Below, piece by piece: positions 34,209 to 42,266 of a stretch of 64,000 nucleotides of DNA. The translations under genes were made by a program, and so were the position numbers. The stretch lies in contig JARGNI010000001.1 of the NCBI GenBank assembly GCA_029213195.1, positions 62,001-126,000 on the forward strand. The letters run 5' to 3'. The stretch comes from Verrucomicrobiales bacterium (GTDB taxonomy: Bacteria; Verrucomicrobiota; Verrucomicrobiia; Verrucomicrobiales; DEV007). Every line of letters starts with the position of its first letter. The stretch's first letter is position 1. The notes below the pieces were generated by a model. The model had not been told where the DNA came from, ran no database searches, and was given only the letters and a program-made list of their open reading frames with translations.

Positions 34209-35009
34209 TCAAACCGAAGCTCGTCGGAAGAGGGTATCGACGACGTTGCGGATGTATTGCTCGTCGGACAGTCCGACGGTGATTTCATCGGGGAAATCGC
34301 TCAGGGATCGAAAGTGATCGGCGAGCTTCTGAAACAATCGCAGTCGGCAATCCGGATCCAGCTCGTTTCTTCGAGTGACGGCGTCGAGAGCGATGCGAGC
34401 TTCTTCGGGAGACACTCGCTGGCGAAGACGGGCTTCGAGATGGGGTTGCGTGGCAAAGGAATTTTCTCCCGTCGCCAGCAGTTCGCCAAAGGAAGGTGCC
34501 GAGGGGGTGACTTCGCGGACGACGAGGGTTCCGGCGGCGATGTCACCAATCCGCTGGCAATGACGAGTGACCAGGCAACTGATGCTGCCGATCAGGTAGA
34601 AGGTGGATGGCAGGATATCGAGGACACGGAACAGGTTTCGGATCACGACTTGCTTGAGCCCCAGTGAGAGGCCTCTCTCGTCGATGACGCGGAGACGAAA
34701 GATGCGTTTTCCCACGGTTTGACCAGACCAGAGCCACTCCGTGATCATCCCGTAGAAAGTGAAGATGAGGAACTGCAGCAAGATGGTCGCCCCATAGCCG
34801 AAGTCGACGATGATTTCTCCCACGATGGGGATCGCACTGAGGCTGGTTTGGAAAATTCGAATGACTTGGGTCGTGATCAGGGTCAGGGCGACGACGACCG
34901 CATAGTCGATTGCGAGGGCGAGACAGCGGCTGAAAGGGCTCGCCACCGGAATCTGGAAGCCGACGCCCTCCGGGGTCCGGATCTCGAGTGATGTCGTTTC
35001 TCCCAGCAT
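34209..35009 (-). CDS. RDD family membrane protein
   Basis: This 266-residue protein has an RDD domain: RCLALAIDYAVVVALTLI (first helix with the Arg/Asp pattern), a second helix near ATILLQFLIFTFYGMITEWLWSGQTVGKRIFRLRVID, and VIRNLFRVLDILPSTFYLIG. The C-terminal 90 residues are soluble and helical. RDD proteins are often ion- or envelope-stress-related transporters; this one's function is unknown. Its ATG shares one base with the TGA of the SpoIIM-like gene (TGATG at 35007-35011), showing translational coupling. RDD/SpoIIM pairs are a recurring arrangement, often near MoxR and DUF58 genes that are not seen here. Confidence 0.85.
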   Translation of the reverse strand: MLGETTSLEIRTPEGVGFQIPVASPFSRCLALAIDYAVVVALTLITTQVIRIFQTSLSAIPIVGEIIVDFGYGATILLQFLIFTFYGMITEWLWSGQTVGKRIFRLRVIDERGLSLGLKQVVIRNLFRVLDILPSTFYLIGSISCLVTRHCQRIGDIAAGTLVVREVTPSAPSFGELLATGENSFATQPHLEARLRQRVSPEEARIALDAVTRRNELDPDCRLRLFQKLADHFRSLSDFPDEITVGLSDEQYIRNVVDTLFRRASV

Positions 35010-36022
35010 CAGGCTTCCTCAGTAGCGTTGCGTTTCTTTCTTCGCCCGCAAAAGGCGAGGTAGACGATCAGACCGATCAGCTGGATGGCCCCCAGTCCGA
35101 TTTTCCAGGGGTAGAACTGCGGGGCATGGTATTGCGAAAGGAAGGATTCCACGATTCCCGCCCAGATCAGGAGCAGCGCCGCCCCGCTGATGAGGGTGAG
35201 CAGGTCACCCCGGACTCTCGCAAAACGCTGTCGCAATTTCAGGTTCGTTCCCCATCCAAACATCGTCCGGGCAATGACGAGCCCAGCCTGACCTCCCATG
35301 AAAATGGCGGGCAGCTCGAAGGAGCCATGTGGCAGCAGCCAAGCGGTCAGGAAGAGCCCCTGGCCGTCGGTGATGTAGTCAAACATGACCACTCCGATGA
35401 GCGTGCCATTGTAGAAGAGCAGCACGATGGTGAGGATTCCGTAGAAGAAGCCCGTGACCATGGTCAGGATGGTCACCTTCGTATTGTGGGTCATCAGTTG
35501 AGCAGAGAACTGATGTCGCCCCTGGAAGGAGTCAAAGTCCTGTTTCTCCTCTCGCTCGACCCGCTTCGAGGGCTTCTCGTTGAGGTGGGAGAACTGGGGA
35601 GGAATGAAGTCAGCCTTGAGATCGTAATTGATCGCCAGCGCAGCCGCTCCAAATCCTGCCCCGACAAAGAAGGTTCCGATGGACAGCGCGAAAGCGATCC
35701 AGTGCCGCCGAAAGGTGGAGGGGAAGGTGCGAGTAAGCCAATGCCAGGGGCGAAAGGGCACCGATTCTCCTCCGTCCGCGTGAAGAAAGCTGTAGGCTCG
35801 AGCCACGAGATTCTCGAGAAAGCGAGTTGTTTCGACCTCGCCCGCAAAGGTCTTCAGCTTGACCAGGTCGGCGGAAGTGCGCTGATAAAGGTAGTAGAAT
35901 CGCTGAGCTTCCTGCAGTGGCGGACGACGGCTGGGATCATCGGACTGGAGACGCAGCAATTCCCGGAGTTCGTCCCAGTAAGGCCGTTCCTTGGCGATGA
36001 ATTTGTCCAGATCCAGAATCAC
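35009..36022 (-). CDS. Stage II sporulation protein M-like membrane protein (SpoIIM/DUF95)
   Basis: This is a 337-residue protein from a GTG start. The N-terminal helical region (LDLDKFIAKERPYWDELREL) is characteristic of the non-sporulating SpoIIM/DUF95 family. Membrane helices follow: HWIAFALSIGTFFVGAGFGA, KVTILTMVTGFFYGILTIVL, LIGVVMFDYI, and GDLLTLISGAALLLIWAG near the end, with HGSFELPAIFMGGQAGLVI in between. The frame runs on to a TTG at 36058, but the GTG at 36022 fits family alignments better. The function is unknown outside spore formers; coupling to the RDD gene suggests a shared membrane complex. It is divergent from the GspE-like gene. Confidence 0.83.
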   Translation of the reverse strand: MILDLDKFIAKERPYWDELRELLRLQSDDPSRRPPLQEAQRFYYLYQRTSADLVKLKTFAGEVETTRFLENLVARAYSFLHADGGESVPFRPWHWLTRTFPSTFRRHWIAFALSIGTFFVGAGFGAAALAINYDLKADFIPPQFSHLNEKPSKRVEREEKQDFDSFQGRHQFSAQLMTHNTKVTILTMVTGFFYGILTIVLLFYNGTLIGVVMFDYITDGQGLFLTAWLLPHGSFELPAIFMGGQAGLVIARTMFGWGTNLKLRQRFARVRGDLLTLISGAALLLIWAGIVESFLSQYHAPQFYPWKIGLGAIQLIGLIVYLAFCGRRKKRNATEEA

Positions 36023-36190
36023 GAGAGAGACTATGATGACGTCCTCCTTTTCTGGCAAGAGTCATTCTCTGCAAAGAGATCGGAAATCTCGACTTTTTCC
36101 GACTCGGTATCGAGAATCAAACTGCAACTCTACCGCGGGCGCGGGGTTGACTCGGATCCCGTTTTGCTGCGATGCTCGCGGGCGATTGTT

Positions 36191-37870
36191 ATGTCCCTGA
36201 TCCCTCTCCTTACCAAAATTTCTCTTCAGAGCGGGTGTGCCGACCCTTCACGGTGCCAGACGGTGCTGGATGAAGCTTCCTCCAATCACAACCCTCTCAT
36301 CGATTCCATGCTCGATGCCGAGCTGGTCGATGAGGATACCTTTGGTGCGCAGTTGGCGGCGGCGGCGGGGCTTCCGTTTCATCCCGATCCGACGGAGGAG
36401 GAAGGCGCTTCCGTGTATCGGAAATTTCCTGCCAAGGTGGCTCTGCGTCATCGCATCCTGCCTGTGAAAAGCGAGGAAGAAGGGCTGACGCTCCTGACCT
36501 ACGACCCGTTCAACCTCGATGCGCGACAAGCGGTGGGGCGAGAGTGGGATCAACCGGTGAAGTGGGCAGTGGGCACTCGTTATCGCATCCTCGAAGGACT
36601 CCGCAAAGGGTATGGCGTCGGCGCCGAACAATTCGACGAGCTCGTTGAGGGGCGTGACCCGGGAGCCGAGGACGATTTCGAGCAGGAGGTGACCCAGCTC
36701 GACGAGGAGGACGAAGAGGCCTCCGTGATGAATTTTGTGAACCAGATCTTTCGCGAAGCGCTTCGCGAACGAGCGACCGACATTCACCTGGAGCCGCTGG
36801 AGAAGAACCTCCGGATTCGCTACCGGATCGATGGAGCACTGCAGGAGGTCACCGTGCCCCCGGATATCCGAGCGCTGCAGGCCTCCCTGATCTCCCGGCT
36901 CAAGATCATGGCCCAGCTCGATATTGCCGAGCGACGCCTTCCCCAGGATGGTCGGATCAACCTCGAGCTGGATGGAAACCCGGTCGATGTGCGTGTCGCC
37001 ACGATCCCCTCGGTCAATGGCGAGAGTGTCAGTCTGCGTCTTCTCACCCGGCAGAATTTCGACATGGATATGCTGGGCATCGACGACGAGACCCGAAAGC
37101 TGATCGAAGGTCTCCTCAAGCAGCCCAACGGGATCATCCTCGTTACAGGTCCCACCGGATCAGGTAAGTCGACGACTCTCTACACCTTTCTCAAGCAGCT
37201 CAACACCAAGGACACCCGGATCGTCACGGTCGAGGACCCGGTGGAGAACCGGCTCGACGGCGTCGTCCAGATCGCGATCAAGCCCGAGATCGGGCTGACC
37301 TTTGCGAGCGGTCTTCGATCGATCCTTCGAGGCGATCCGAACATCATCATGGTGGGGGAGATGCGGGACCTGGAAACCACTGAGATCGCGATTCGAGGCG
37401 CGCTGACCGGTCACCTTGTTTTCAGCACCCTTCATACCAATGACGCCGTTTCGGGGATCACGCGACTTTTGGATATGGGAGTCGAACCTTTCCTGATTGC
37501 TTCTTCCGTTCGTGCTTTCCTGGCACAACGCCTGGTGAGAAAGCTGTGCGACGAGTGCAAGCGCCCGGCCGAACTCGAGGATGAGTATCTGGACCAGATT
37601 GGGTTTCCTCTCGCCATGAAATCAGGAATTCACGAAGCGGTGGGATGCCGTGCCTGCCGGGATACCGGTTATCGTGGCCGAATGGCGATCCTCGAGATCT
37701 GTGTGATCGAGCCCAAGCTGTCCGAGCTCATCACGACCCACGCACCCTATTCCCAGTTGAAGAAGCAGGCGCTCGACAATGGAATGAAGACGCTCCGTGG
37801 ATACGGTTGGACCAAGGTCGCTTCCGGCCAGACGACGATCGAGGAAGTCCTCAGCAACGTGGATCACTAG
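36191..37870 (+). CDS. GspE/PilB/PulE family secretion-pilus ATPase
   Basis: This is a 559-residue cytosolic hexameric ATPase of type II secretion or type IV pilus assembly. The N-terminal domain (about 1-150) is T2SSE-N like. The core has Walker A GPTGSGKST (320-328, K326), an Asp box TVEDPVE, the Walker B-like IIMVGEMRD and a His box (HLVFSTLHTNDA). The tetracysteine zinc motif (CDEC and CRAC, about 40 residues apart) marks the GspE/PilB extension ATPases rather than PilT. The frame is open back to 34988, but only the segment from the ATG at 36191 is homologous; the rest is antisense to RDD and SpoIIM. No other pilus or secretion gene is adjacent. Confidence 0.93.
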   Translation: MSLIPLLTKISLQSGCADPSRCQTVLDEASSNHNPLIDSMLDAELVDEDTFGAQLAAAAGLPFHPDPTEEEGASVYRKFPAKVALRHRILPVKSEEEGLTLLTYDPFNLDARQAVGREWDQPVKWAVGTRYRILEGLRKGYGVGAEQFDELVEGRDPGAEDDFEQEVTQLDEEDEEASVMNFVNQIFREALRERATDIHLEPLEKNLRIRYRIDGALQEVTVPPDIRALQASLISRLKIMAQLDIAERRLPQDGRINLELDGNPVDVRVATIPSVNGESVSLRLLTRQNFDMDMLGIDDETRKLIEGLLKQPNGIILVTGPTGSGKSTTLYTFLKQLNTKDTRIVTVEDPVENRLDGVVQIAIKPEIGLTFASGLRSILRGDPNIIMVGEMRDLETTEIAIRGALTGHLVFSTLHTNDAVSGITRLLDMGVEPFLIASSVRAFLAQRLVRKLCDECKRPAELEDEYLDQIGFPLAMKSGIHEAVGCRACRDTGYRGRMAILEICVIEPKLSELITTHAPYSQLKKQALDNGMKTLRGYGWTKVASGQTTIEEVLSNVDH

Positions 37871-37896
37871 GCGGCGGGCCGATTTCCCTTCTTCGC

Positions 37897-38597
37897 GGAC
37901 ATCGAGGACGCGGTCCGCGGGACGATGTCATGGAGGGACCGCGTCCCCGCGGTCCGCGGCGAAGAATCCGTGGAAGGCGCGTGGATCACCGAACAGAGCA
38001 TCCTGCCAAACGGCGGACATCGAGGACGATGTCCCTCCCTGGCTGGTCCGCATCCGCGGCTACGGACATCGAGGACGCGGTCCGCGGGACGATGTCATGG
38101 AGGGACCGCGTCCCCGCGGTCCGCGGCGAAGAATCCGTGGAAGGCGCGTGGATCACCGAACAGAGCATCCTGCCAAACGGCGGACATCGAGGACGATGTC
38201 CCTCCCTGGCTGGTCCGCATCCGCGGCTACGGACATCGAGGACGCGGTCCGCGGGACGATGTCATGGAGGGACCGCGTCCCCGCGGTCCGCGGCGAAGAA
38301 TCCGTGGAAGGCGCGTGGATCACCGAACAGAGCATCCTGCCAAACGGCGGACATCGAGGACGATGTCCCTCCCTGGCTGGTCCGCATCCGCGGCTACGGA
38401 CATCGAGGACGCGGTCCGCGGGACGATGTCATGGAGGGACCGCGTCCCCGCGGTCCGCGGCGAAGAATCCGTGGAAGGCGCGTGGATCACCGAACAGAGC
38501 ATCCTGCCAAACGGCGGACATCGAGGACGATGTCCCTCCCTGGCTGGTCCGCATCCGCGGCTACGGACATCGAGGACGCGGTCCGCGGGACGATGTC
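37897..38597. repeat. Tandem 167-bp repeat array (about 4.2 copies) with internal palindromes
   Basis: Near-identical 167-bp units start at 37897, 38064, 38231 and 38398, and a partial fifth begins at 38565 and ends near 38597. Each unit holds at least three dyads. In unit 1, GGACCGCG (37936-37943) pairs with CGCGGTCC (37948-37955) across a 4-nt loop. GGACATCG (38025-38032) pairs with CGATGTCC (38037-38044) across AGGA. GACATCG (37898) pairs with CGATGTC (37923) around a GC-rich core. The array fills the 760-bp gap between the convergent ends of the GspE-like and TrhO genes. Because 167 is not a multiple of three and no forward frame has a stop, it creates long open frames that are not genes. 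Confidence 0.95.
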
Positions 38598-38630
38598 CCT
38601 CCCCTCGGCTCGCGAGCGTTCCCTTTCGCG

Positions 38631-39545
38631 TTACTGGTCTGCCGCTTCTGCCGCGGCCCGACACTTCTCGTCGCAGTAGAGTCCCTGCTCGTCGCGGCAG
38701 TCCGGACAGACAAAAATCTGCTCGTTGCAATCGGGCCACTGGCAATTGCCATAGTGGGGCTCTTCGACTCCGCAATAGCGACAGGTCGAGATCACTTTGT
38801 GCGTTTCCGTGCGATTGACTTCGACACCGACTCGCTGGTCGAACACATAACAGAGTCCTTCGAAGTCTCGGCCGGCGACTTCGGGGTCCTTTCCGTATTT
38901 CACGATCCCACCCTCAAGCTGGTAGACCTTCTCGAATCCTTCCTTCTTCAGGAAGCCGGACAGTTTCTCGCATCGAATTCCCCCGGTGCAGTAGGTCAGG
39001 ATCTCTTTGCCTTTCAGCTCATCGGCATGCTCCTCGACCCATTCCGGGAATTCTCGAAAATTTCGAATCGGGGGGCAAATGGCGCCTTTGAAATGCCCCA
39101 GTGCCGCTTCGTAGTCATTGCGCCCATCGATGATGACCACATTCTCGTCCTGCATCTTCTCGTAAAACTCGCGGGGCGAAAGTCGTTCTCCCGTCACTTC
39201 GTTGGGATCGATGTCCTCTTCCGGTTCCAGTCCCAGGGTCACGATCTCTTCGCGAATCTTGATCGAGAGTTTGGGAAAAACATGATCCTCGGCCGGATCG
39301 ATCTTGAACTCCATCTCGGTGGTGAGGGGATCGCCATGCATGGCATCGCGATATTTCTCGGTTTCCTCGTAGGTTCCCGAGACGGTTCCATTGATCCCTT
39401 CCCTTCCGACAATGATGCGCCCTCGCAGGTTCAGAGACTCGCAAAGTTCTCGGTGCGACTCGAGGTAAGACTCTGGGTCGGCGATCGGAACATAGCGGTA
39501 GTAGAGCAGGACCTGGTAGGGGGGCGTCGTTGTCTCAGTTTCCAT
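38631..39545 (-). CDS. trhO: tRNA uridine(34) hydroxylase (rhodanese-like YceA family)
   Basis: This 304-residue protein has an N-terminal acylphosphatase-like domain (VLLYYRYVPIADPE, GREGINGTVSG) and a rhodanese domain (VVIIDGRNDYEAALGHFKGA) with active-site C186 in TYCTGGIRCEK. A cysteine-rich C-terminal tail (CRYCGVEEPHYGNCQWPDCN, VCPDCRDEQGLYCDEKC) probably binds zinc. This is the complete TrhO layout. TrhO uses oxygen to hydroxylate U34 of tRNA to ho5U, precursor of cmo5U/mo5U. Its 3' end faces the tandem repeat array. The N-terminus METETTTPPYQ is at the family start. Confidence 0.92.
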   Translation of the reverse strand: METETTTPPYQVLLYYRYVPIADPESYLESHRELCESLNLRGRIIVGREGINGTVSGTYEETEKYRDAMHGDPLTTEMEFKIDPAEDHVFPKLSIKIREEIVTLGLEPEEDIDPNEVTGERLSPREFYEKMQDENVVIIDGRNDYEAALGHFKGAICPPIRNFREFPEWVEEHADELKGKEILTYCTGGIRCEKLSGFLKKEGFEKVYQLEGGIVKYGKDPEVAGRDFEGLCYVFDQRVGVEVNRTETHKVISTCRYCGVEEPHYGNCQWPDCNEQIFVCPDCRDEQGLYCDEKCRAAAEAADQ

Positions 39546-39717
39546 GGTTCCCGAGAAGGTAGCGAATCTGTTCTCGCTCTCAAGTGGGAGAGGGGCCAGA
39601 TCCTGAAAATCCGAAATTGCACGCCCGTTTCTCAGAATAAAATCTCAATCTTGAGAATTTTTTCAAAAATGGCAATAATTTCTGGATTTATTCGTGGGGT
39701 TGCCGTAAAACAGCCTC

Positions 39718-39936
39718 GTGAACACCCTCGAAGTCAGCACGCGTGATCGGATCTTGAGTAGAATTACCTTCTATGTCCTCGTGTGCCTGGTCATGTGGGT
39801 GACCAATGCCCTGCTTCCAGACTGGACCGCGATCGAAGAGGCAAAGTGGGAATCACGCGGCGTGGTTCGGCCCATGATCGCCGTACCCATCTCGGAGCTG
39901 CCGTTTCAGCCGGCATCCGTGATCATCAGTCGCTGA
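39718..39936 (+). CDS. Possible small single-pass membrane protein
   Basis: This is a 72-residue frame from a GTG, with one clear hydrophobic helix (ITFYVLVCLVMWVTNALLP, about residues 16-34) followed by a short charged tail. It is preceded by an AT-rich stretch (about 39635-39695) that could hold a promoter, and it lies between the 5' end of trhO and the 3' end of nagA where no other gene fits. No homologue is recognised, there is no clear ribosome site, and the frame is short, so it may be spurious. Confidence 0.4.
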   Translation: MNTLEVSTRDRILSRITFYVLVCLVMWVTNALLPDWTAIEEAKWESRGVVRPMIAVPISELPFQPASVIISR

Positions 39937-41198: not shown

Positions 41199-42266
41199 CT
41201 ACTCGCTGGGAGCGTCGGTGGAGCCGGCTTTGGCGGCTGGCTTGGGGCTCTCAGCCGGCTTGGGGGCGGCAGCGGGTTTCGGTGCTGCCTTGGGCTTCGA
41301 CTCCGGAGCTGCCTTGGGCTTGGGGTCCGCTTTCGCTTTGGGCTTGGGGTCTGTGGCAGGTTTGGGTTTCGCGGCAGGAGCTGGGGCTTTGTCCTTTGCT
41401 TTTCCTTTGGCGCCTTGCGCCGGTTTTGGATCTGCTTTCTCCGCCGCTTTTCCTTTGGCTTTCGCCTTCCCCTTGGCGTCCGCCGGCTTGGCGGGAGCGG
41501 CAGGCTTGGTCTCTTCTCCCTTGGGATCGGAGGCGGCAGGTTTGTCTTCCTTCGGAGCGGGTGCCGGCTCGGGCTCAGGACGGTCGACGACTTTGGGCGT
41601 TCCCACTTTGAGCAGACCGAGCTTCTCTTCCGCTACTGCGAAAAAGGGTGTGCCGGGGTGCAGGGTGTAGACATCCTGGTAGTGCTGGTCGGCGGCTTCC
41701 TTGTCCCCGTTTTCCAAATCAAGATCCCCGAGACGAATCCGGGTGAGGGGAGTCATCTCTCCATCTTCCTGGGCGGCGATGGTCTGGTTGTAGTAGTCCT
41801 CGGCTTTCTCGCGGTCACCCGAAACATGATACAGGTTTCCCAGCGCGTAGAGTCCTTGCGGGAAACGCGGGTGTTCTCCAAAATCGTTGATGAACTGCTC
41901 GAGAGTGGCCCGGGCATCTTCGGGTTTTCCCTGGTCGGAGAGAAGCTTGGCCTTGCTCAATAGCGCATTGCCTGCGGCGATCGAACCGGGAAAGTCCACG
42001 ACAACGGCATCGAAAGAGGCGACCTCGCTTTTCTCCAGGGCCGTCGAGTAGGCCTTGGCGGCATCGATATGTTTCTGCTTCTTGAGCTGAACGGAAACCA
42101 GGACCGCGCAGACCACGATCGCGATGGCGGCCACCCCGAAGATGATCTTGTTGCGATTCCGGTCCAGCGTATCCATGACATTGGCGGCATCGGAAGCGGA
42201 AAGTGCTTCGGGGACCTCAGGGTTCTCGGCTGGATTTTCAGCGGGGGGATCGGTTCGATCGGACAT
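41199..42266 (-). CDS. Membrane-anchored TPR protein with Lys/Ala/Pro-rich tail (YfgM-like)
   Basis: This 355-residue protein has a short acidic cytosolic N-terminus, a single transmembrane helix (IIFGVAAIAIVVCAVLVSV, about residues 41-59), then TPR-type helical pairs (about 65-220: AKAYSTALEKSEVASFDAVV, YALGNLYHVSGDREKAEDYY, IRLGDLDLENGDKEAADQHY). This resembles the TPR_21/YfgM arrangement. The last 130 residues are low-complexity Lys/Ala/Pro (for example PKPKAKADPKPKAAPESKPK), resembling histone H1 tails. The tail probably contacts peptidoglycan, anionic polymer or another protein; this is inference. It lies 78 bp downstream of cysK and a terminator separates them. Confidence 0.8.
   Translation of the reverse strand: MSDRTDPPAENPAENPEVPEALSASDAANVMDTLDRNRNKIIFGVAAIAIVVCAVLVSVQLKKQKHIDAAKAYSTALEKSEVASFDAVVVDFPGSIAAGNALLSKAKLLSDQGKPEDARATLEQFINDFGEHPRFPQGLYALGNLYHVSGDREKAEDYYNQTIAAQEDGEMTPLTRIRLGDLDLENGDKEAADQHYQDVYTLHPGTPFFAVAEEKLGLLKVGTPKVVDRPEPEPAPAPKEDKPAASDPKGEETKPAAPAKPADAKGKAKAKGKAAEKADPKPAQGAKGKAKDKAPAPAAKPKPATDPKPKAKADPKPKAAPESKPKAAPKPAAAPKPAESPKPAAKAGSTDAPSE

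Follow-up and report, generated by a model that had tools for sequence, protein, structure and literature searches.

A 167-bp tandem array in a Verrucomicrobiales genome is very probably an amplified REPIN of GGAG-tagged hairpins with a dedicated RAYT

The present study concerns a 64,000-nucleotide stretch of a Verrucomicrobiales genome (the window; contig JARGNI010000001.1, positions 62,001 to 126,000), which carries a 167-bp tandem array. We propose, with a probability of approximately 0.92, that this array is an amplified REPIN/BIME, in which non-autonomous hairpins with a GGAG tag are mobilized by a dedicated RAYT (an HUH-Y1 enzyme) encoded at C57:221605-222078. G000 denotes the genome of the window, C57 the window's own contig, and L numbers the loci that were fetched. 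REPs, small repeats that are plentiful in many bacteria, have been described as carrying a GT[A/G]G tag. The hairpins of the array belong to a dispersed family with inverted pairing and mainly extragenic placement, and the RAYT gene, which encodes the HUH and tyrosine motifs, is flanked by REPs. The 77 dispersed hairpins, their alternation, their extragenic placement, and the REP-flanked RAYTs lead us to regard the array as a tandemly amplified REPIN/BIME. The interpretation in an earlier note on this DNA is partly supported; its suggestion of a "REP/RAYT-type element that has been amplified" gains strong support from the dispersed copies, their alternating orientation, the REP-flanked RAYT of this genome, and the occurrence of this family next to homologous RAYTs in four other genomes. 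Most likely, the array is an insertion, selfish or neutral, in the gap between two convergent genes, and the hairpin elements are probably parasitic.

The head-to-tail array and the perfect 8-bp hairpins described in the earlier note are both real. TRF reported a period of 167, 4.2 copies, a 100% match, and 0% indels, and a comparison of the letters revealed four full units that are identical throughout, followed by the first 34 bp of a fifth (Table 1). Each unit begins with a longer hairpin variant and also contains two GGAG hairpins, the first on the + strand and the second on the - strand. The inverted pair follows the formula GGAG + GGACxxCG-TCCn-CGx'x'GTCC; the GGACCGCG/CGCGGTCC and GGACATCG/CGATGTCC hairpins are present in four copies each. 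The pattern GGAGGGACNNNGTCCNCNNNGTCC, with up to two mismatches allowed, has eight matches in the window, all of which are exact, against a mean of 0.01 across 100 shuffles. The longer hairpin, a word of 33 nt, opens each unit and closes the array, giving five copies. Copies 1-4 directly abut the ATGGAG of the next REP and lack a GGAG foot of their own; within the array, only the final copy has one, and a near-identical variant with a GGAG foot is located on contig C47 (L020 from 2937). Since each unit is bounded by copies of the long hairpin, it may be regarded as a 33-bp direct repeat plus 134 bp, a structure that would suit multiplication via unequal exchange or slippage. When folded as single-stranded DNA, the unit has a z value of -1.88, and 6 of 200 shuffles folded equally well. 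A search of 37600-38900 against Rfam gave no match above the gathering score and two sub-threshold microRNA models (E 0.22 and 0.67).

Table 1. Features of the array and its immediate surroundings (positions in the window).
Feature	Position	Strand	Remarks
Tandem array, 4.2 identical units of 167 bp	37896..38597	.	TRF, unit identity
REP 1, GGAG foot, stem GGACCGCG, loop TCCC	37932..37955	+	
REP 2, GGAG foot, stem GGACATCG, loop TCCT	38015..38038	-	Inverted partner of REP 1
REP 3	38099..38122	+	Like REP 1
REP 4	38182..38205	-	Like REP 2
REP 5	38266..38289	+	Like REP 1
REP 6	38349..38372	-	Like REP 2
REP 7	38433..38456	+	Like REP 1
REP 8	38516..38539	-	Like REP 2
Long-hairpin REP variant, copy 1 of five	37897..37929	-	Other starts: 38064, 38231, 38398, 38565
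Last long-hairpin variant with its GGAG foot	38565..38602	-	Foot is CTCC (+ strand) at 38599-38602
Upstream ORF, GspE/PilB-like ATPase in 3' part	34988..37870	+	ORF reading by eye; start uncertain, taken from the longest ORF
Downstream convergent ORF, TrhO/rhodanese-like	38631..39545	-	ORF reading by eye

The four perfect unit copies are also what would be expected if one or two REPIN units had been written four times during assembly, a reading that is compatible with an amplified REPIN/BIME. Contigs C20, C44, and C92 have REPs of the array's family no more than 250 bp from an end (in C92, from either end), and since the assembly consists of 115 contigs with REPs at contig ends, identical 167-bp units may have been mis-counted. 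However, the dispersed copies in G000 have different flanks, and arrays with differing units at C57:221282-222344 and C113:11735-12399 indicate that such arrays occur in this genome. We consider an artefact in copy number to be unlikely.

Copies elsewhere in the genome, for which the earlier note had proposed a search, were readily detected. The pattern GAGGGACNNNGTCCNCGNNGTCC has 77 exact hairpins in G000 (38 on the + and 39 on the - strand) against 0 for a reversed-pattern control. Among the matches listed, the variable stem bases co-vary as complementary pairs (AT, CG, CA, AA, GT, and AG stems), with a few single-base deviants (e.g. C57:222288 and C113:12377), which indicates that the hairpin is kept, not the word. 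With up to one mismatch, there are 97 copies in 40 loci, namely the 77 exact copies and, of the 22 one-mismatch places listed, the 20 that remained after C46:3693 and C57:45038 had been dropped by eye as not palindromic; most of the two- and three-mismatch places, which are unlisted, lie outside this count. Of 57 pairs of neighbors no more than 300 bp apart, 56 have opposite orientations (+- 35, -+ 21, ++ 1), and 58 bp is the spacing seen most often in +- pairs; these are inverted REP pairs at a short regular distance, as in REPINs and BIMEs. According to rough gene calls by a model that assigned 92% of the window as coding, 62 of 73 REPs from 27 G000 sources are outside called genes and 11 are inside. 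With a constant tetranucleotide, a palindrome of 20-50 nt, and many dispersed, mainly intergenic copies, the family corresponds to REPs in the wider sense (PMC6006769, PMC8266576).

The exact hairpin pattern is nearly private to one species. In a search of relatives, it was absent from 54 of 55 other genomes and occurred once in the remaining genome (G026), and the contrast of 77 with 0 or 1 reflects species-level turnover only. Two genomes of the same genus carry RAYTs that score above 200 bits: in G028, the GGAG feet accompany stems GGGCAAGC or GGGCAGG, and in G031, where the gene is at a contig end, there is one GGAG hairpin with the stem GGTCGTGC. Sister species retain the tag and a loop with TCC but have other stems, and this would account for the restriction of the exact pattern to one species. 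The slightly different pattern GGAGGGACNNNGTCCNCNNNGTCC was found in 20 of 387 genomes of the phylum, G000 included. A scan of named genomes gave at least 103 stretches with this pattern, 96 of which fold into a hairpin with 7 or all 8 of the pairs formed; the other seven (L037, L071, L085, L089, L091, L105, and L109) are probably due to chance. Labels among the matches listed include Verrucomicrobiota, Kiritimatiellae, Chthonomonas, Sumerlaeota, Hydrogenedentota, Deltaproteobacteria, and others; since most of the labelled records are metagenome bins, these labels may be wrong. One stretch (L074 1375-1862; DYKI01000013.1) carries nine GGAG hairpins with the stem GGACGGCG in a single orientation, mostly 44 bp apart, and no RAYT of the REP-linked clade was detected at 1e-15 in its genome (G431, labelled Chthonomonas).

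A RAYT gene, which the earlier note had also proposed looking for, is present on the same contig, outside the window and 121 kb from the array. It is situated between ORFs read by eye as guaA and secDF, and REP arrays of the array's family, with a period of ~96 bp, occupy both of its flanks. The gene was found via proteins of G178 and G255, whose Y1 genes are flanked by array-family REPs, and the homologue was then seen in G000. REPs of this family flank homologous RAYTs in L163, L164, and L120 and lie downstream of the RAYT in L064, where the contig begins at the gene. In total, five homologous RAYTs in five genomes have array-family REPs alongside.

The G000 protein scored 80.9 bits against NCBIfam REP_Tyr_transpos, barely above the cut-off of 80, and the G178 and G255 homologues scored 87.4 and 88.6 bits, respectively. 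The HUH motif and the single tyrosine in Y---NP are present (D-H-L-H and Y-V-R-N-N-P in L183), and among 58 RAYTs, D70, H71, and H73 are invariant and Y131 and N135 are at least 90% conserved. The best solved relative of a profile of the five RAYTs is 4er8, TnpAREP of Escherichia coli in complex with a REP hairpin (E 2.5e-13), and the predicted structure of the G000 RAYT (mean pLDDT 91) also has 4er8 as its best fold match (E 4.6e-10), giving the enzyme a RAYT fold in the model. Against Pfam Y1_Tnp (PF01797), the protein scored 16 bits, under the cut-off of 23, and we do not place the family among IS200/IS605 elements or their MITEs. As bait, this Pfam model found genes on C88, C81, and C71 of G000 and missed that on C57; no array-family REPs were detected within the fetched 1.5 kb on each side of these three Y1 genes. 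A RAYT of the clade is present in 16 of 20 motif-bearing genomes vs 88 of 367 others (Fisher p 5e-7), on the assumption that the same 387 genomes underlie the motif and RAYT lists. No clade RAYT was detected at 1e-20 in 4 of the 20 motif-bearing genomes, and none at 1e-15 in 11 of 26 genomes reached from motif loci.

Since G000 carries several further Y1/RAYT-like genes, the assignment of the hairpins to the C57 RAYT rests on proximity and homology. Another Y1 enzyme of G000 might have moved the hairpins, the C57 gene merely being in a REP-rich place, and the CGTC-tagged repeats of other bacteria do occur without a dedicated RAYT (PMC3733652). However, array-family hairpins adjoin five homologous RAYTs in as many genomes, and the RAYT-like genes on C71 (by eye) and C87 have different repeats alongside. 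Therefore, we find mobilization by another enzyme quite improbable.

As the earlier note stated, the array is located between convergent 3' ends, the flanking ORFs ending at 37870 and 38631. That note listed transcription termination as a possible role, which the sequence does not support; 0 terminator-like sites were found in 37700-38800. An explanation of the array as a terminator or mRNA 3'-end barrier common to the two genes, with the repeats kept for this role, is very unlikely in our view, and such a role could coexist with a mobile origin. The position of the array agrees with it, as does the finding that 11 of the 24 REP clusters flanked by two called genes are between convergent genes vs 9 of 33 window junctions, both by rough calls. 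However, 9 of the 24 clusters are in tandem gaps and 4 in divergent gaps, seven relatives with the gspE-trhO gene pair do without the array, and neither the alternating orientation nor the flanking of RAYTs is explained. The hairpins of the amplified REPIN/BIME could still affect mRNA 3' ends.

Of the 33 genomes in the genus, 23 (including G000) have the TrhO-like gene at E 1e-40. In 7 of the 22 other genomes with a TrhO match, gspE is next to trhO, and the remaining 15 showed no gspE in the fetched stretch. The array is absent from the gspE-trhO gap of all seven relatives (L304, L306, L308, L309, L312, L313, and L318; the L309 gap contains a run of N), and no clean empty site was found among them. 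Since their gaps are filled by other sequence, the insertion point is unreadable. By eye, six gaps contain a similar reverse-strand stretch and L304 contains a different, longer one. This gap sequence may have been lost from G000.

The earlier note also emphasized that all three forward frames are open. The frames are indeed open across the array (37585-38676, 37871-38815, and 37788-39743); however, this is near chance and has little meaning, since the unit contains 0 forward stop trinucleotides (3 on the reverse strand) and 171 of 5000 dinucleotide shuffles are equally stop-free. A protein-coding repeat in one of these frames, which run over 315 to 652 codons, is extremely unlikely because 167 is not a multiple of three and the frame shifts in each unit, because some shuffles are as open, and because the gaps of seven relatives have no such array.

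Going by the biochemistry in PMC8266576, we expect the enzyme to bind the folded single-stranded hairpin via the GGAG guide and the stem-loop. Its tyrosine would cleave nearby, and REPINs would be moved to new sites. In the pairing model for GTAG, guide bases 3 and 4 choose CT and bases 2 and 4 choose CA (PMC8266576); a GGAG guide would choose CT (bases 3 and 4) and CC instead of CA (bases 2 and 4). In a later step, the 167-bp unit may have multiplied through unequal recombination or slippage between identical 33-bp copies.

The anatomy of the array resembles that of the REPINs of Pseudomonas fluorescens SBW25, in which REPs are paired and extragenic and RAYT genes adjoin REPIN clusters (PMC3116915). 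The largest tandem cluster of SBW25 consists of four near-identical REPINs and one REP over 700 bp (PMC3116915), and since such clusters are close in anatomy to the present array, tandem arrays are a known form. In contrast to SBW25 REPINs (PMC3116915), the present family has a GGAG tag, a perfect 8-bp stem, a TCCn loop, a commonest +- distance of 58 bp, and a host in Verrucomicrobiota. TnpAREP of E. coli (4er8; PMC8266576, PMC6006769) shares HUH, Y---NP, and a W-Q-x(4)-acid-x(3)-R motif after HUH with the G000 RAYT, and E. coli REPs are similarly grouped at the RAYT gene (PMC8266576, PMC6006769). However, E. coli REPs have a GTAG tag and a bulged stem (PMC8266576, PMC6006769), and His101 of E. 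coli TnpAREP is aligned with Arg in the G000 enzyme and with Thr, Arg, or Ser in most GGAG relatives. The GTAG/CGTC repeats (PMC3733652) are also short tagged palindromes that form outward-tag dimers and tandem-reiterated clusters, and O. terrae of Verrucomicrobia is reported to be highly enriched for GTAG repeats (PMC3733652). The array family differs from them in having a third tag, GGAG, and a dedicated RAYT (PMC3733652).

REPs have been defined by the 5' tetranucleotide GT[A/G]G (PMC3686654; also PMC6006769). The GGAG foot is found on 8 of 8 window REPs and in 81 exact places in G000, and the REPs of the array thus fall outside the narrow definition of PMC3686654. No word starting with GGAG occurs in the available text of PMC3733652, PMC6006769, PMC2817692, PMC8266576, PMC3686654, or PMC3116915, a look-up of word beginnings that leaves letters inside longer words uncounted. 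In the literature searched, no paper combined TnpAREP with GGAG, and RAYT, GGAG, and palindrom occurred together only in papers with titles on unrelated subjects.

The majority tag of 97 related RAYT loci was GGAG in 41, GTAG in 13, and neither in 43. These RAYTs are nearly all from the phylum and were taken from 123 rows (at least 126 bits and at least 150 residues, L161 left out); the sampling began with five RAYTs chosen for adjoining array-family REPs, which favors GGAG among the nearest kin. When four-letter hairpin feet within 900 bp were counted, 42 loci had at least two GGAG feet, 13 had at least two GTAG feet, and 4 had at least two of the next word. Since the stems of part of the clade do not start with G (e.g. 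L256, L267, and L275), the foot in that part is GGAG and not GAGG. These results suggest that GGAG with a dedicated RAYT is a third tag beside GTAG and CGTC. If true, a large verrucomicrobial set of RAYTs with GGAG-tagged REPs, which also has members in bins carrying a Hydrogenedentota or Deltaproteobacteria label, would make the tag an evolvable component, and searches based on GT[A/G]G would overlook GGAG-tagged REPs.

The tag appears to be associated with one residue of the RAYT. In the alignment, the residue after the acid in W-Q-x(4)-acid-x(3)-R falls opposite His101 of E. coli TnpAREP, a residue that PMC6006769 discusses together with guide-contacting residues. At the 41 GGAG loci, this residue is Thr in 24, Arg in 15, Val in 1, and His in 1, and at the 13 GTAG loci, it is His in 11 and Thr in 2 (Fisher p 6e-8). 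A looser scan was applied to the 43 loci left unlabelled by the strict rule: those with His gave 7 GTAG, 1 GGAG, and 10 ties, those with Thr or Arg gave 8 GGAG, 1 GTAG, and 15 ties, and the one with Val tied (p 0.003, 26 ties). When applied to the 54 labelled loci, the same scan reversed the label of 3 and gave a tie for 12. Its feet numbered 75 GTAG and 12 GGAG at His loci, 82 GGAG and 6 GTAG at Thr loci, and 66 GGAG and 3 GTAG at Arg loci, with 2 to 12 for each of the control feet GCAG, GAAG, and GTGG. The raw exceptions are L216 and L234 (GTAG, Thr), L286 (GGAG, His), and L219 (GGAG, Val). When the flanks were re-read, after the residue had been seen, L286 was judged to have GTAG REPs, L234 to have GGAG REPs closest to the gene, and L216 to have a GGAG hairpin adjoining the gene.

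In genomes reached from the motif, which partly overlap the earlier sample (L326 is the same gene as L120), the residue matched the tag at every locus where it was readable and at least two feet were GGAG, GTAG, or GTGG. GGAG occurred with Thr in L326, L327, and L328 (L328 by eye), with Arg in L339, and with Ser in L330, the first instance of this residue; His occurred with GTAG in L335 and L344 and with GTGG in L350. L348 and L349 have GTAG feet and an unreadable residue, and at L333 and L343, both with Arg, GGAG is absent and the GTAG or GTGG feet are single. Since L339 is a distant RAYT type (60 bits), GGAG probably arose there separately.

On the tree, three to five tag changes are required. 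The residue and tag changed alike in 2.0 of 4 independent pairs with raw labels, 2.0 of 2 after correction of three labels, and 2.8 of 3 when held-out loci were included, and they never changed in opposite ways among independent pairs; the sign test is unable to reach 0.05 with these numbers. Since independent switches are too few, the link between residue and tag is without significance on the tree. The mutual information with the tag is greater for positions 20, 95, and 81 of L183, which are variable or gappy columns, than for position 117, and position 117 was picked post hoc because it coincides with a residue that PMC6006769 names for the guide-contacting region. The link, as read from these alignments, is a strong lead and not proof. 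We lean slightly towards the view that GGAG REPs are a third superfamily with RAYTs of their own and that the guide switched repeatedly together with residue 101, which would act as a specificity switch, His reading GT[A/G]G and Thr, Arg, or Ser going with GGAG. If so, residue 101 would determine how the second guide base is read and thereby the choice of cleavage and insertion sites, and natural tag switches would offer a direct test, by a single point mutation in a well-characterized enzyme, of guide reading and cut-site choice by RAYTs.

Other repeats were noted beside RAYT-like genes. On C71 of G000 (L166 4628-5356, L011), a RAYT-like gene has long inverted repeats on both sides that start with GTAG and contain GGGTCTC (by eye), and their spacer shares GCGAAGAATC with the 167-bp unit. 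The RAYT-like gene on C87 (L352 1255-2575) is bracketed by GTAG-footed hairpins, CCCCGCTG and CCACGCTT; beyond these, at a distance of some hundred bases, is a GGAG pair whose stems are GGACACGG and GGACAGCG. In G026, a distant RAYT on C99 (L353 1495-2315) with Arg at the guide residue has GGAG hairpins AGGCGGT-TTTCT-ACCGCCT and GGGCGGT on both sides. The window also contains 24-bp tandem repeats at 41280-41366, within the ORF at 41199-42266 (-), the product of which has a tail rich in alanine, proline, and lysine.
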